From: Herbidospora cretacea
GTDB taxonomy: Bacteria > Actinomycetota > Actinomycetes > Streptosporangiales > Streptosporangiaceae
Direction: 5' to 3'
DNA: 64,000 nt
Assembly: GCF_001570605.1 (NCBI RefSeq)
Contig: NZ_BBXG01000020.1
Location: 1-64,000 of the forward strand
The notes under the pieces were generated by a model, which searched no databases, had not been told where the DNA came from, and was given only the letters and a program-made list of their open reading frames with translations. How positions within the stretch are numbered: position 1 is the stretch's first letter; every line of letters begins with the position of its first letter. A program made the position numbers and the translations under genes. This document shows, piece by piece, positions 13,890 through 17,267 of this stretch.

Positions 13890-13937
13890 ATGTCATGGAC
13901 AAGTCGGGCCCAAGTCGGCGCTGCCACGATCTCGTGA

Positions 13938-16061
13938 GTGAACGTGAGAGTACCGGTCCGTCTCCAGTCCGGTCTGGCCGAGTGCGGGGCCGCCTGCCTG
14001 GCCATGGTGCTCAGTCACCACGGCCGGCACACCGGGGTCCGCGAGGTGTCCGAGCAGTGCGGGGTCGGCCGCGACGGCCTGTCGGCGCTGGCGATCGTCA
14101 AGGCGGCCCGCGGCTACGGGCTGACCGCGACCGCCTACAAGGCCGAGGCCATCGCCGACGCCCCCCTCCCCGCCGTGGCGCACTGGCGGCGCAACCACTT
14201 CGTCGTGGTCGAACGGCAGACCGCCCGGCACGTCGACGTCGTCGACCCCGCGATGGGCCGCCGCAGGCTGACCAGGGACGAGTTCGCCGAGGGCTACTCG
14301 GGGGTGCTGCTCACCTTCACCCCGGCCGAGACATTCCAGCCGCGCGGGCGGGCCAGAAGGACATGGGTGGGGCCGCTCGCCAGAACCGCCCTGCAGAAGG
14401 GCCTGGTCGCCCGGATCCTGCTGGCGTCGCTGATCCTCCAGGTCGTCGGGCTGGGCGTGCAGACGTTCTCGGGGATCCTCATCGACGGGGTGCTGCCGGG
14501 CAGGGACGTCTCGCTGCTGGGCCTGCTCGGGGTGGCGCTGGCGGTGGCCGGAATCGTGCATCTCGGGCTGACGTATCTGCGCGCGGCGACCGTGCTCAAG
14601 CTGCGGCTGCGAGCCGACCGGCTGCTGACGACCGAGGTGGTCGGGCATCTGTTCCGGCTCCCCTACCGCTATTTCGCCACGCGCGGCGCGGGGGACCTGG
14701 CCCAGCGCAGCGCGAGCGTGAGCCGGTTGCGGCAGCTCATCTCCGGGCCGATCACCACGGCGCTGCTCGACGGACCGCTCGCGGTCGGCTACGTGACCAT
14801 CGTGCTGATCTCCTCGCCGCCGCTGGGGCTGTGCCTGCTGGGGCTGGCGTCGGTGCAGGCCGTCCTGCTGCTGACGACGCGCCGGAAGCGGGCCGACCTG
14901 AACCTGGCGGCGCTGTCGGCGCAGGTCCAGACGCAGGGGCAGCTCATCGAGGCGATCAAGGGCGTGGAGATCCTCAAGGCCGGGGCCATCGAGGACGCCG
15001 CGCTGAGCCGCTGGTCACGGCTGTTCATGGACCAGCTCAAGGCCGACGGGCAGCACGGCCGGACCGAGAACCTGGTCACCTCGGTGCTGGAGAGCATGCG
15101 CCTGCTCGCCCCGGCGGCGCTGCTGTGGACGGGCGGCTGGCAGGTCCTCGACGGCCGCCCCCTCGGCCAGACACTGACGCTGGTCGCGCTGGCCGGGGCG
15201 GCGCTGGCGCCGATCACGTCGCTGGTGGCGACGGTCCGGACGCTCCAGGAGGCGGGCACCCACCTGGAGCGGCTGGCCGACATCCTGGAGTTCACCCCCG
15301 AGCCGTACGGAGAGGTGAAGGTCGGCCACCTGCGCGGCCAGATCGAGCTCAGCGACGTGTCGTTCCGGCACGCCCCCAACGCGCCCTGGATCCTGTGGCG
15401 GATCTCGCTGACCGTCGGCCGGGGCCAGAAGGTCGCCCTGGTGGGCGGGAGCGGCTCGGGCAAGAGCACCCTGGCCAGGATCATGGTGGGCCTGTACGAA
15501 CCCACCTTCGGCGCCGTCAGCTACGACTCGGTCCGGATGGAGGCGCTCCAGCGCTCGTCGCTGCGGCGCCACTTCGGGGTGGTCACCCAGGAGGCCCACC
15601 TGTTCACCGGCACCATCAGGGAGAACATCTCCCTCGGCCGCCCCGGCGCGACGCCCCGCGAGATCGTCGAGGCGGCGAGGATCGCGTGCGTGCACGACGA
15701 GATCATGGCCATGCCGATGAACTACGAGACCAACCTGTCGGAGGGCATGGGCCTGTCGGGCGGCCAGAAACAGCGGCTGGCGCTGGCCAGGGCGGTGCTC
15801 GGGCGGCCGAAGGTGCTGCTGTTCGACGAGGCCACCAGCCACCTCGACACCGTCACCGAGGCCGCCATCGAACGCAATCTCGCCGCGCTGACCCAGACCC
15901 GCATCGTGATCGCCCACCGGCTGAGCACGGTCCGCGACGCCGACCTGATCGTCGTCATCGACGACGGCCGGGTGGTCGAACAGGGCACCCACGACGAGCT
16001 GCTGGACCTCGGCGGGCACTACACCCGGCTGGTGGCGCACCAAGAGAAGGCCCTGCCGTGA
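13938..16061 (+). CDS. Peptidase-containing ABC exporter (C39 peptidase, double-glycine type)
   Basis: A 707-residue exporter that cleaves double-glycine leaders and exports the mature peptide. Residues 1-135 are a C39 peptidase with Gln10, Cys16 (GLAECGAACLAMVL), His87 (NHFVVVE) and Asp103 (VVDPAMG) all present. Residues ~150-440 are the membrane domain. The ATPase domain has Walker A GGSGSGKST, Q-loop VVTQEAHLFTGTIRENI, signature LSGGQKQRLALARA, Walker B VLLFDEATSHLD and H-loop VIAHRLST. GTG at 13938 is the start. Two double-glycine peptides lie directly downstream and are the obvious substrates. No HlyD-type partner is seen. Confidence 0.95.
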   Translation: MNVRVPVRLQSGLAECGAACLAMVLSHHGRHTGVREVSEQCGVGRDGLSALAIVKAARGYGLTATAYKAEAIADAPLPAVAHWRRNHFVVVERQTARHVDVVDPAMGRRRLTRDEFAEGYSGVLLTFTPAETFQPRGRARRTWVGPLARTALQKGLVARILLASLILQVVGLGVQTFSGILIDGVLPGRDVSLLGLLGVALAVAGIVHLGLTYLRAATVLKLRLRADRLLTTEVVGHLFRLPYRYFATRGAGDLAQRSASVSRLRQLISGPITTALLDGPLAVGYVTIVLISSPPLGLCLLGLASVQAVLLLTTRRKRADLNLAALSAQVQTQGQLIEAIKGVEILKAGAIEDAALSRWSRLFMDQLKADGQHGRTENLVTSVLESMRLLAPAALLWTGGWQVLDGRPLGQTLTLVALAGAALAPITSLVATVRTLQEAGTHLERLADILEFTPEPYGEVKVGHLRGQIELSDVSFRHAPNAPWILWRISLTVGRGQKVALVGGSGSGKSTLARIMVGLYEPTFGAVSYDSVRMEALQRSSLRRHFGVVTQEAHLFTGTIRENISLGRPGATPREIVEAARIACVHDEIMAMPMNYETNLSEGMGLSGGQKQRLALARAVLGRPKVLLFDEATSHLDTVTEAAIERNLAALTQTRIVIAHRLSTVRDADLIVVIDDGRVVEQGTHDELLDLGGHYTRLVAHQEKALP

Positions 16062-16074
16062 CGGGGGCCGACTT

Positions 16075-16108
16075 GTACGCGGCTGGGATCTCGGCCCGAG
16101 CCGCGTAC
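16075..16108 (+). terminator. Stem-loop between exporter and first peptide gene
   Basis: GTACGCGGCT (16075-16084) and AGCCGCGTAC (16099-16108) form a perfect 10-bp stem around a 14-base loop. It lies 13 bp after the exporter stop. It could be a partial terminator or a processing site that uncouples peptide from exporter expression. Confidence 0.6.
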
Positions 16109-16165
16109 CAGAGGCTGCTGGAAGTCTTCGGAGCGCAAGATTCACGCACGACGAAAGGAATCGCC

Positions 16166-16297
16166 ATGAGCGACTTCGAGACCACCGCGCAGCGGCTCGA
16201 CGACACCGACCTCGCCGAAGTCACGGGCGGCATGTGGGCGAACTACGACTGGATGAACTACGACTGGCGCGACGCCGTCATGATGGCCCTGCCGTAA
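16166..16297 (+). CDS. Double-glycine leader peptide 1, NYDW-type (unrecognised family)
   Basis: A 43-residue peptide with ATG at 16166 after GAAAGGAA. The leader MSDFETTAQRLDDTDLAEVT ends in GG at residues 21-22, matching the double-glycine processing pattern. The predicted mature part is 21 residues and contains MWANYDWMNYDWRDAV, in which NYDW occurs twice. It has no Cys, Ser or Thr, so lanthionine or thiazole rings are excluded, and its net charge is about -2. It is the probable substrate of the exporter just upstream. I do not recognise this family; bacteriocin, pheromone or substrate of a distant aromatic-crosslinking enzyme are all open. Confidence 0.85.
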   Translation: MSDFETTAQRLDDTDLAEVTGGMWANYDWMNYDWRDAVMMALP

Positions 16298-16300
16298 CCA

Positions 16301-16329
16301 CGCTCCGCTTGGAGCGGGCCGCGCGCGGC
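16301..16329 (+). terminator. Two adjacent hairpins between the peptide genes
   Basis: CGCTCC (16301-16306) pairs with GGAGCG (16311-16316). GCCGCGCGCGGC (16318-16329) is self-complementary. Together they form a GC-rich structured spacer directly after peptide gene 1. A terminator or RNA-stability element is plausible. Confidence 0.5.
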
Positions 16330-16416
16330 TTGCGAGTCAGGCACAAGTGATCGCCAAGTGGGCGCTGGGATCTTGGGTCTCGCAAGGTTCACGGAACGAG
16401 ACACAAGGGGGTTGTC

Positions 16417-16548
16417 ATGAACAACTTCGAGAACACCGCCCAGGAGCTCGGCGACAACGAGCTCGCCGAAGTCACGGGCGGCATGTGGGCGAACTACGAC
16501 TGGATGAACTACGACTGGCGCGACGCCGTCATCGACGCTCTTCCGTAA
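16417..16548 (+). CDS. Double-glycine leader peptide 2, NYDW-type (paralog of peptide 1)
   Basis: A second 43-residue peptide. Its leader MNNFENTAQELGDNELAEVT differs from peptide 1 at several positions and again ends in GG. The predicted mature 21 residues differ from peptide 1 only near the end (VIDALP instead of VMMALP) and keep MWANYDWMNYDWRDAV exactly. Net charge is about -3. ATG at 16417 follows AAGGGGG. The 5' flank (CGCAAGGTTCACG) is also shared with peptide 1, so the duplication included the leader region of the mRNA. A terminator follows. Confidence 0.85.
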   Translation: MNNFENTAQELGDNELAEVTGGMWANYDWMNYDWRDAVIDALP

Positions 16549-16567
16549 CCCTGACACCCAGGGGGTG

Positions 16568-16599
16568 AACGGGGCCGTCCCTTTCGGGGCGGCCCCGTT
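16568..16599 (+). terminator. Terminator after the peptide genes
   Basis: AACGGGGCCGTCCC (16568-16581) pairs with GGGGCGGCCCCGTT (16586-16599), 13 of 14 positions, around a short TTTC loop. It closes the exporter-peptide locus before the next gene. Confidence 0.8.
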
Positions 16600-16619: not shown

Positions 16620-17267
16620 ATGATCGAAGCCGTCGTTTTCGACCTCGACGGAGTCGTCGTCGACTCCGAGCCCGTCTGGGAAGAGGTCCGCCGTGCCGTC
16701 GTCGCCGAGTTCGGCGGCACCTGGATGCCCGACACGCAGAAGCGCCTGATGGGCATGAGCACCCCGGAATGGGCCGACTACCTGACCGGTGAGCTGGGCG
16801 TCTGGCTCTCGCCCGACGAGACCGCCGACACCGTCATCGAGCGGATGGCCGAGCGCTACCGCCACCACCTGCCGCTGCTCCCGCACGCCGCGGCGACCAT
16901 GCGCGCCATCGCCGACCAGTGGCCGGTCGGGGTGGCCAGCTCCTCCCCCGCCGTCCTGATCGAGACCGTGCTGACGGCCCTCGACGTGGACGTGCGGGTG
17001 GCGATCTCGACCGAGACGATGAAGCGCGGCAAGCCCGCGCCCGACGTCTACCTGGCCGTGGTCGAGCAGCTCGGGGTCGAGCCCGGCCGGGCGGTCGCGG
17101 TGGAGGACTCCAGCAACGGGCTGCGGTCGGCCGCGGCGGCCGGGCTGATCGTCGTCGCGGTGCCGCAGGCGGCCTACCCGCCCGACGACGACGCGCTGGC
17201 CGGAGCCTCGCTGGTGCTGACCGACCTGGCCGAGCTCACGCCCGAAGCGGTGGCACGGCTGGCCTAG
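16620..17267 (+). CDS. HAD-family phosphatase (beta-phosphoglucomutase-like)
   Basis: A 215-residue HAD hydrolase. Motif I is VVFDLDGVVVDSEPVW (Asp8 nucleophile, Asp10 acid/base). Motif II is VGVASSSPAVLIE, the Lys is in MKRGKPAPDVYLAV, and motif IV is AVAVEDSSNGLRSAAAAG. The helical cap fits subfamily I, which acts on small phosphorylated sugars or metabolites; substrate unknown. A terminator separates it from the peptide locus, so a link to it is unlikely. Its stop overlaps the convergent gene's stop by 4 bp. Confidence 0.9.
   Translation: MIEAVVFDLDGVVVDSEPVWEEVRRAVVAEFGGTWMPDTQKRLMGMSTPEWADYLTGELGVWLSPDETADTVIERMAERYRHHLPLLPHAAATMRAIADQWPVGVASSSPAVLIETVLTALDVDVRVAISTETMKRGKPAPDVYLAVVEQLGVEPGRAVAVEDSSNGLRSAAAAGLIVVAVPQAAYPPDDDALAGASLVLTDLAELTPEAVARLA

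Follow-up and report, generated by a model that had tools for sequence, protein, structure and literature searches.

A stretch of 64,000 nucleotides from Herbidospora cretacea (contig NZ_BBXG01000020.1, positions 1 to 64,000; referred to as the window) encodes a C39 peptidase-ABC exporter followed by two short double-glycine peptides, here termed NYDW peptides after a motif of their cores. These genes probably belong to a conserved, co-regulated peptide secretion system of the Streptosporangiaceae, whose exporter, a peptidase-containing ATP-binding cassette transporter (PCAT), is related to graspetide exporters. Gene anatomy, conservation, a shared operator and the kinship of the exporter were computed directly.

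The exporter had been described in an initial annotation as complete with four catalytic residues, and we confirmed that Gln10, Cys16, His87 and Asp103 are all present, along with the Walker A, LSGGQ, Walker B and H-loop motifs and matches to three Pfam domains (Peptidase_C39, E 1.6e-33; ABC_membrane; ABC_tran). The gene starts with GTG in the list of open reading frames (ORFs) of the window. An N-terminal C39 peptidase with its Gln, Cys, His and Asp residues is joined to transmembrane and nucleotide-binding domains, as in a PCAT, and the adjacent double-glycine substrates, with leaders ending in ELAEVTGG or DLAEVTGG, are kept in relatives. ComA (query residues 11-699) and PCAT1 (10-704) were matched near full length among PDB chains, while the best NCBIfam match, TIGR03796, stayed below its cut-off. 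The next gene, at 16620, encodes a HAD-type hydrolase; the range first assigned to the system ended at 16599, in the gap before it.

Both peptides consist of 43 residues, of which 22 form a leader ending in VTGG and 21 the core, and leader aside they match exactly along the last 20 positions up to DAV (block VTGGMWANYDWMNYDWRDAV), in agreement with the ORFs, leaders and shared block first reported. The cores have net charges of -2 and -3, consistent with the acidic mature part that had been proposed, and contain no Cys, Ser, Thr or Lys. The earlier statement that Cys, Ser and Thr are lacking is correct for both window cores and does not extend to the family: although Thr and Lys are absent from all 18 distinct family cores, four of the 18 contain a Cys and three a Ser, and the host's own distant copy has both. 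A lanthipeptide or disulfide bacteriocin does not fit window cores free of Cys, Ser and Thr and a single Cys in the four family cores. The peptides were rightly called unrecognised in that no Pfam or PADLOC model names them; the NCBIfam model bacteriocin_sig (TIGR01847, a general double-glycine leader motif) gave 15.8 bits for peptide 2 and 13.1 for peptide 1 (cut-off 15.7), and the class IIb bacteriocin model TIGR03949 gave 15.3 bits, under its cut-off of 21.5. In the literature, mainly its open part, no description of the family was found under terms for these taxa, double-glycine peptides, DUF5685 or NYDW, and among the matches listed for the string NYDW no title concerns such peptides.

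The peptides are real conserved genes. When 297 Streptosporangiaceae genomes were searched for the peptide, 15 matched at E<=0.1, one of which (G063; G numbers are our handles for genomes, C for contigs and L for loci) was discounted as chance-like, its match (E 0.008) falling within a frame of 1439 aa. At the level of the class, a profile search matched four of 394 genomes, all Streptosporangiaceae, and a collection of named genomes yielded 20 loci from 14 species belonging to Herbidospora, Acrocarpospora, Microbispora and Nonomuraea, so that all confident relatives found fall within the family. The core pattern GGxxx[ND]Y[DN]Wxx[YW]DWRDAVxx[AS]LP is maintained across genera; F4, L16, G21, G22, Y27, W29, D33-V38, L42 and P43 are invariant in the 18 distinct sequences, a set that we selected. 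Over 29 copies (core numbering), Y5, W7, D11-V16, L20 and P21 never change, with synonymous codons at R13, A15, V16 and L20, and variation is found mainly at positions 1-3, 8, 9 and 18. The core of Nonomuraea spiralis is shortened, with a single NYDW (MWANYDWRDAVIDALP). Peptide ORFs beside C39 exporters, for which the initial annotation had suggested a search in actinomycete genomes, are thus conserved in related genomes, and nowhere was the exporter kept and the peptide lost: a peptide ORF was present in 11 of the 11 genomes with an exporter of at least 71% identity, in G146 as a broken copy.

The number of copies ranges from one to four per genome, which makes the previous description of the peptides as twins too narrow. 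Two copies lie beside the exporter in the window, two or three in six other Herbidospora genomes and one in Acrocarpospora. In addition, an orphan copy situated far from the exporter, its core of the HS/HA type, was found in six of seven Herbidospora genomes, including the host, where its neighbours include a GNAT gene; no exporter lies within about 10 kb on either side of these copies. Further orphans occur in G127 (C160), G239, G155, Nonomuraea antri and N. spiralis. Unlike cores are paired (LPWNYDWAN.. beside MWANYDWMN.. or MYPNYDWMN..) in six of the seven Herbidospora genomes. The orphan copies, the shared operator and the graspetide kinship had been missed because they are invisible from the window alone.

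What is new here is an operator common to the peptide promoters, the exporter promoters and a DUF5685 gene. Aligned peptide upstream regions gave the pattern CAAG-N7-CAAG-N7-TGNNANNNT, often with an extra repeat-like AG upstream. Among 31 peptide upstream regions (duplicates L062 = L045 and L065 = L046 removed, the frameshifted L052 copy kept), it is present strictly in 26, with at most one mismatch in 29 and with at most two in 31, the first repeat standing 65-73 nt before the start; mononucleotide-shuffled controls gave 0 of 9300 strict matches and 0.4% with at most two mismatches. Since the pattern was derived from the peptide promoters themselves, the independent tests are the counts at exporters, in the host genome and in further genomes. 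All 11 exporter loci carry the element with the -10 T 6-7 nt before the first in-frame start, and a leaderless exporter mRNA is therefore predicted. The 8.28-Mb host genome contains four strict sites, compared to none for the reversed control, and these precede peptide 2, the orphan peptide on contig 17, the exporter and the DUF5685 gene. In 14 further genomes picked by peptide match, 44 strict sites were found compared to two control sites, with none in G063; sorted by us according to place, 10 precede exporters, 23 peptides, eight DUF5685 genes and three other genes. Within the window, two strict sites were found (none in 100 shuffles), while the degenerate site of peptide 1 is weak when taken alone (5 of 100 window shuffles reached three matches).

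Table 1 Features of the exporter-peptide locus in window coordinates.
Feature	Position	Strand	Basis or remark
C39 peptidase-ABC exporter (PCAT), 707 aa	13938..16061	+	ORF list, Pfam, motif check, ComA/PCAT1 chain matches, clade of 11
Peptide 1, leader MSDFETTAQRLDDTDLAEVTGG, core MWANYDWMNYDWRDAVMMALP	16166..16297 (stop included)	+	ORF list, leader and conservation searches
Peptide 2, leader MNNFENTAQELGDNELAEVTGG, core MWANYDWMNYDWRDAVIDALP	16417..16548 (stop included)	+	ORF list, leader and conservation searches
Exporter operator/promoter, CAAG-N7-CAAG-N7-TGNNANNNT	13900..13930	+	Strict site; -10 T 7 nt before GTG
Peptide 1 operator, degenerate	16097..16127	+	Two mismatches; first repeat 69 nt before start, as in relatives
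Peptide 2 operator, strict	16344..16374	+	Pattern search

The kinship of the exporter was assessed by identity, phylogeny and neighbourhood. Exporters of at least 71% identity occur in exactly 11 of the 297 family genomes (at most three candidates being scored in each), every one of which bears the peptide, and in a midpoint-rooted tree of 25 rows these 11 form one clade with 100/100 support, next to exporters of lower identity. A TIGR04187-like ATP-grasp gene and a TIGR04500 gene accompany the exporter in 13 of 14 related-exporter loci that we chose from the matches, compared to 0 of 21 NYDW loci (11 of which contain an exporter), and the NYDW exporter shares about 44-59% identity with the exporters found beside graspetide-type genes. 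A rosaritide-type (group 21) cluster comprises the precursor MirA, the TIGR04187 synthetase MirB, its TIGR04500 partner MirC and the TIGR03796 PCAT MirD (PMC13097080; here and below, comparisons with published systems refer to the available portions of the cited sources). The simplest reading of the sequences, with the root not fixed, is that the NYDW exporters may descend from a graspetide exporter through loss of the maturation genes.

Taken together, these results are consistent with the following mechanism. A SARP-like activator (Streptomyces antibiotic regulatory protein) would bind the two CAAG repeats, which are spaced by 11 bp and closely followed by an extended -10, and would switch on the exporter, the linked peptide genes, the scattered orphan peptide genes and the DUF5685 gene; activation by a SARP is suggested by the SARP literature, and the scattered genes would come under joint control. 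By analogy with the PCAT family, the C39 domain would then cut the 43-residue precursors after Gly-Gly and the ABC part would export an acidic peptide of about 21 residues, rich in Trp, Tyr and Asp and always ending in DWRDAVxx[AS]LP. The peptide would leave the cell unmodified, or modified by an enzyme encoded elsewhere, because the loci lack synthetase and partner and most cores lack a Lys, Ser or Thr donor.

Several observations weigh against this picture. The AlphaFold model of the peptide was of low confidence (mean pLDDT 63.8, pTM 0.29), and pN/pS ratios of 0.68 for the core and 0.75 for the leader do not by themselves indicate strong purifying selection, a value that codon bias makes hard to read. 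G155 and G239 have orphan peptides and no exporter above 58% identity, and in Microbispora amethystogenes (G065) the adjoining exporter (68% identity) is a fragment with a TAG stop; these three genomes encode additional C39 exporters, none above 58% identity, which might serve the orphan peptides. In G146, the sole copy found (L052:9820-10093) is frameshifted after NYDW, with the exporter intact and both operators present, which may reflect an assembly error or decay. Regarding the operator, a pattern with one C relaxed to Y matched in 70 of the 297 family genomes and its reversed control in about 65 (hand count), so that little weight attaches to an isolated site in a genome lacking the peptide; beyond the 14 peptide genomes the pattern is about at background, and the notable feature there is conservation, the same sites being kept ahead of DUF5685 in several genera and ahead of a peptide gene in genera g44 and g58. 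Conserved sites elsewhere also precede unrelated genes, namely kinases, an HPP-domain protein, a graspetide-like cluster and genes resembling polyketide synthases (PKS-like). When the host was searched with a profile of the peptide promoters, the exporter site came only fourth (E 0.028), outranked by a site on C12 (E 0.014), while the DUF5685 site was absent from the list. Finally, none of the 35 BTAD matches in the host is linked to the operator.

An alternative explanation is that the product is a ribosomally synthesised and post-translationally modified peptide (RiPP), whose Trp, Tyr or Asp residues are modified, for example by a cross-link, by an enzyme encoded elsewhere before the PCAT exports it. 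Most related exporters examined sit in graspetide-type clusters, the doubled NYDW and the fixed YDWRD spacing would suit an aromatic-modifying enzyme, and the orphan precursors show that parts of the system can be dispersed. However, a graspetide-type gene lies beside none of the 21 NYDW loci (a survey that left P450s and radical S-adenosylmethionine enzymes outside), which accords with the original remark that no modification gene is adjacent. Among the 14 peptide genomes, a search for TIGR04187 at E<=1e-10 gave no match in G027 and G146 and only partial ones in the host, G109 and G163; in the host, the partial match lies in an ATP-grasp/SARP fusion and no complete ATP-grasp maturase of this family was found at that threshold. 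For the host's YcaO, none of the four Acrocarpospora peptide genomes gave a match at E<=1e-15, and G033 and G155 gave only a 38% homologue. On this evidence, a modified product is a possibility that we take seriously and still consider unlikely.

The nature of the regulator also allows two readings. SARP sites are described as direct repeats with a spacing of 11 or 22 bp, of which the final one lies 8 bp from the -10 (PMC10936776), and those of PimR, SanG and PolR are CGGCAAG heptamer repeats (PMC5930380). The geometry found here is the same, with repeats 11 bp apart and the 3' repeat about 8 bp before the -10, and by analogy the operator is most likely bound by an activator with an OmpR-type winged helix, a SARP. 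It might instead be read by a response regulator of the OmpR/PhoB or NarL type: such direct repeats are not unique to SARPs, since AfsR and PhoP bind overlapping ones (PMC10972967), and in the host, a copy of the operator with a single mismatch lies 6 nt ahead of the ATG of a NarL-type response regulator gene. CAAG-containing heptamers of this spacing and position are, however, documented for SARPs (PMC5930380, PMC10936776), and a response regulator in this role seems to us rather improbable. The NarL-type gene itself (L080:1450-1570, strand -; G000:C12) is a candidate member of the regulon.

An unmodified multi-peptide bacteriocin of a class IIb-like kind would agree with the leader (bacteriocin_sig at its cut-off and the sub-threshold class IIb match) and with the pairs of unlike cores in Herbidospora. 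It is at odds with an acidic core whose hydrophobic moment was not significant at 100 degrees (values at 80 and 150 degrees were reached by about 5% of shuffles, uncorrected for nine angles), with the near-fixed core between genera and with the single orphan copies in Microbispora and Nonomuraea. Furthermore, no immunity gene was recognised beside the loci, most neighbours having been read by eye without a profile scan; the initial annotation had likewise noted none adjacent. We therefore regard a bacteriocin of this kind as distinctly unlikely. Given how little the core varies from genus to genus, and that no neighbouring gene was recognised as conferring immunity, our tentative preference, with rather less than even confidence, is for a conserved signal or communal factor acting outside the cell and not for a bacteriocin of an arms race; this assignment of function is a matter of judgement.

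A strict operator precedes DUF5685 in nine genomes (seven of seven Herbidospora and two Acrocarpospora), retained there even though the upstream genes differ, which could suggest that DUF5685 is a working part of the peptide system in maturation, storage or immunity. Yet in G015, G044 and G058, three genomes without a peptide match, DUF5685 likewise follows the operator (one C relaxed to T); only six of 28 DUF5685 upstream regions examined (30 loci minus two giving no start) contain it; and DUF5685 occurs in 27 of 61 family genomes, most of them without the peptide. Because unrelated genes carry conserved sites as well, a shared operator is no proof that DUF5685 serves the peptide, and we hold such a role to be very doubtful. 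DUF5685 proteins (L077:9734-10777 and other loci) have Cys-rich tails such as CDGCCDCCDCCKCDC, and the operator stands before their genes in several genera, with or without the peptide. In the available part of the literature on DUF5685, the only match was a C. difficile annotation study.

Three further candidates were dismissed. A graspetide was rejected for want of a synthetase in the 21 NYDW loci and of Lys, Ser or Thr donors in the window cores (Ser in three of 18 family cores); YcaO/TfuA modification as a requirement was dropped as no match was found in the four Acrocarpospora genomes; and conservation, leader and operator speak against an artefactual ORF.

Other genes under the operator, or resembling parts of the system, were noted in passing. 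In genera g44 and g58 (L189:2740-8301 and L196), the operator is found where a C39 exporter gene ends, ahead of a double-glycine peptide with the core APRLIAMTHVDPPGYCAMD, followed by a second peptide (RPRILVIEVGGTQIDPPGVCVED) and then by ATP-grasp and TIGR04500 genes; from its sequence, this appears to be a graspetide-like cluster under the same CAAG operator. The operator also precedes paralogous protein kinase genes, three in G179 (L174, L176 and L177; genus g6) and one in G201 (L182), and another G179 site precedes DUF5685 (L181). The kinase identity comes from a Pfam run on the L176 gene only, and the term PKS-like used above is our own reading of the sequence. In six of seven Herbidospora genomes, an ATP-grasp maturase-like domain is fused to a SARP (OmpR-type helix-turn-helix (HTH) and BTAD) in a frame of 597-602 aa (G000:C30, L255:8188-9966, strand -; also L256:6839-8647), which adjoins a YcaO/TfuA pair near a lasso-PqqD-like gene; the region is possibly a thioamidated-RiPP locus with an unusual regulator. 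In Nonomuraea spiralis (L069:10660-12588), a large SARP (BTAD and HTH) is encoded one gene from the single-NYDW orphan peptide, which may be coincidence.

To our knowledge, little is known of peptide signalling in filamentous actinomycetes. The locus supplies defined precursors, an adjoining exporter and a promoter element whose rarity in these genomes allows scattered members of a regulon to be located, so that dispersed peptide genes can be found by an operator search instead of a gene-cluster search. Should the peptide prove to be modified, the same operator or co-occurrence might help to trace the missing enzyme. A bolder proposal, which we consider possible rather than expected, is an undescribed, genus-spanning regulon in which a PCAT descended from graspetide exporters would have lost its maturation enzymes and would export near-fixed acidic Trp/Tyr peptides whose genes are scattered over several places. 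One SARP-like operator would switch these genes on along with those of the exporter (as leaderless mRNA) and of a Cys-tailed DUF5685 protein, and the peptide would then represent a new class of signal or co-factor, conserved and extracellular, in actinobacteria and not an antibiotic.

Similar to the NYDW system, the streptococcal Com, Blp and rtg systems export double-glycine peptides by a PCAT (PMC7018657, PMC7595303). ComA is one of the full-length solved homologues of the NYDW exporter, whereas neither an Rgg regulator nor a peptide-sensing kinase was recognised beside the NYDW loci. The mature streptococcal peptides are presumably unrelated in sequence to the NYDW cores. With the SARP operators of PimR, SanG, PolR and AfsR (PMC5930380, PMC10936776), the CAAG operator shares the 11-bp direct repeats, a CAAG-containing heptamer and a position near a weak -10, and it differs in its targets (a PCAT, small peptides and DUF5685) and in its extended -10. 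The rosaritide clusters (PMC13097080) are alike in the TIGR03796 kind of exporter, the double-glycine precursor leader and the actinobacterial setting. In contrast to them, the NYDW loci have neither synthetase nor TIGR04500 partner and most cores no Lys, Ser or Thr, while the system has several precursors, including orphans, and the CAAG operator.

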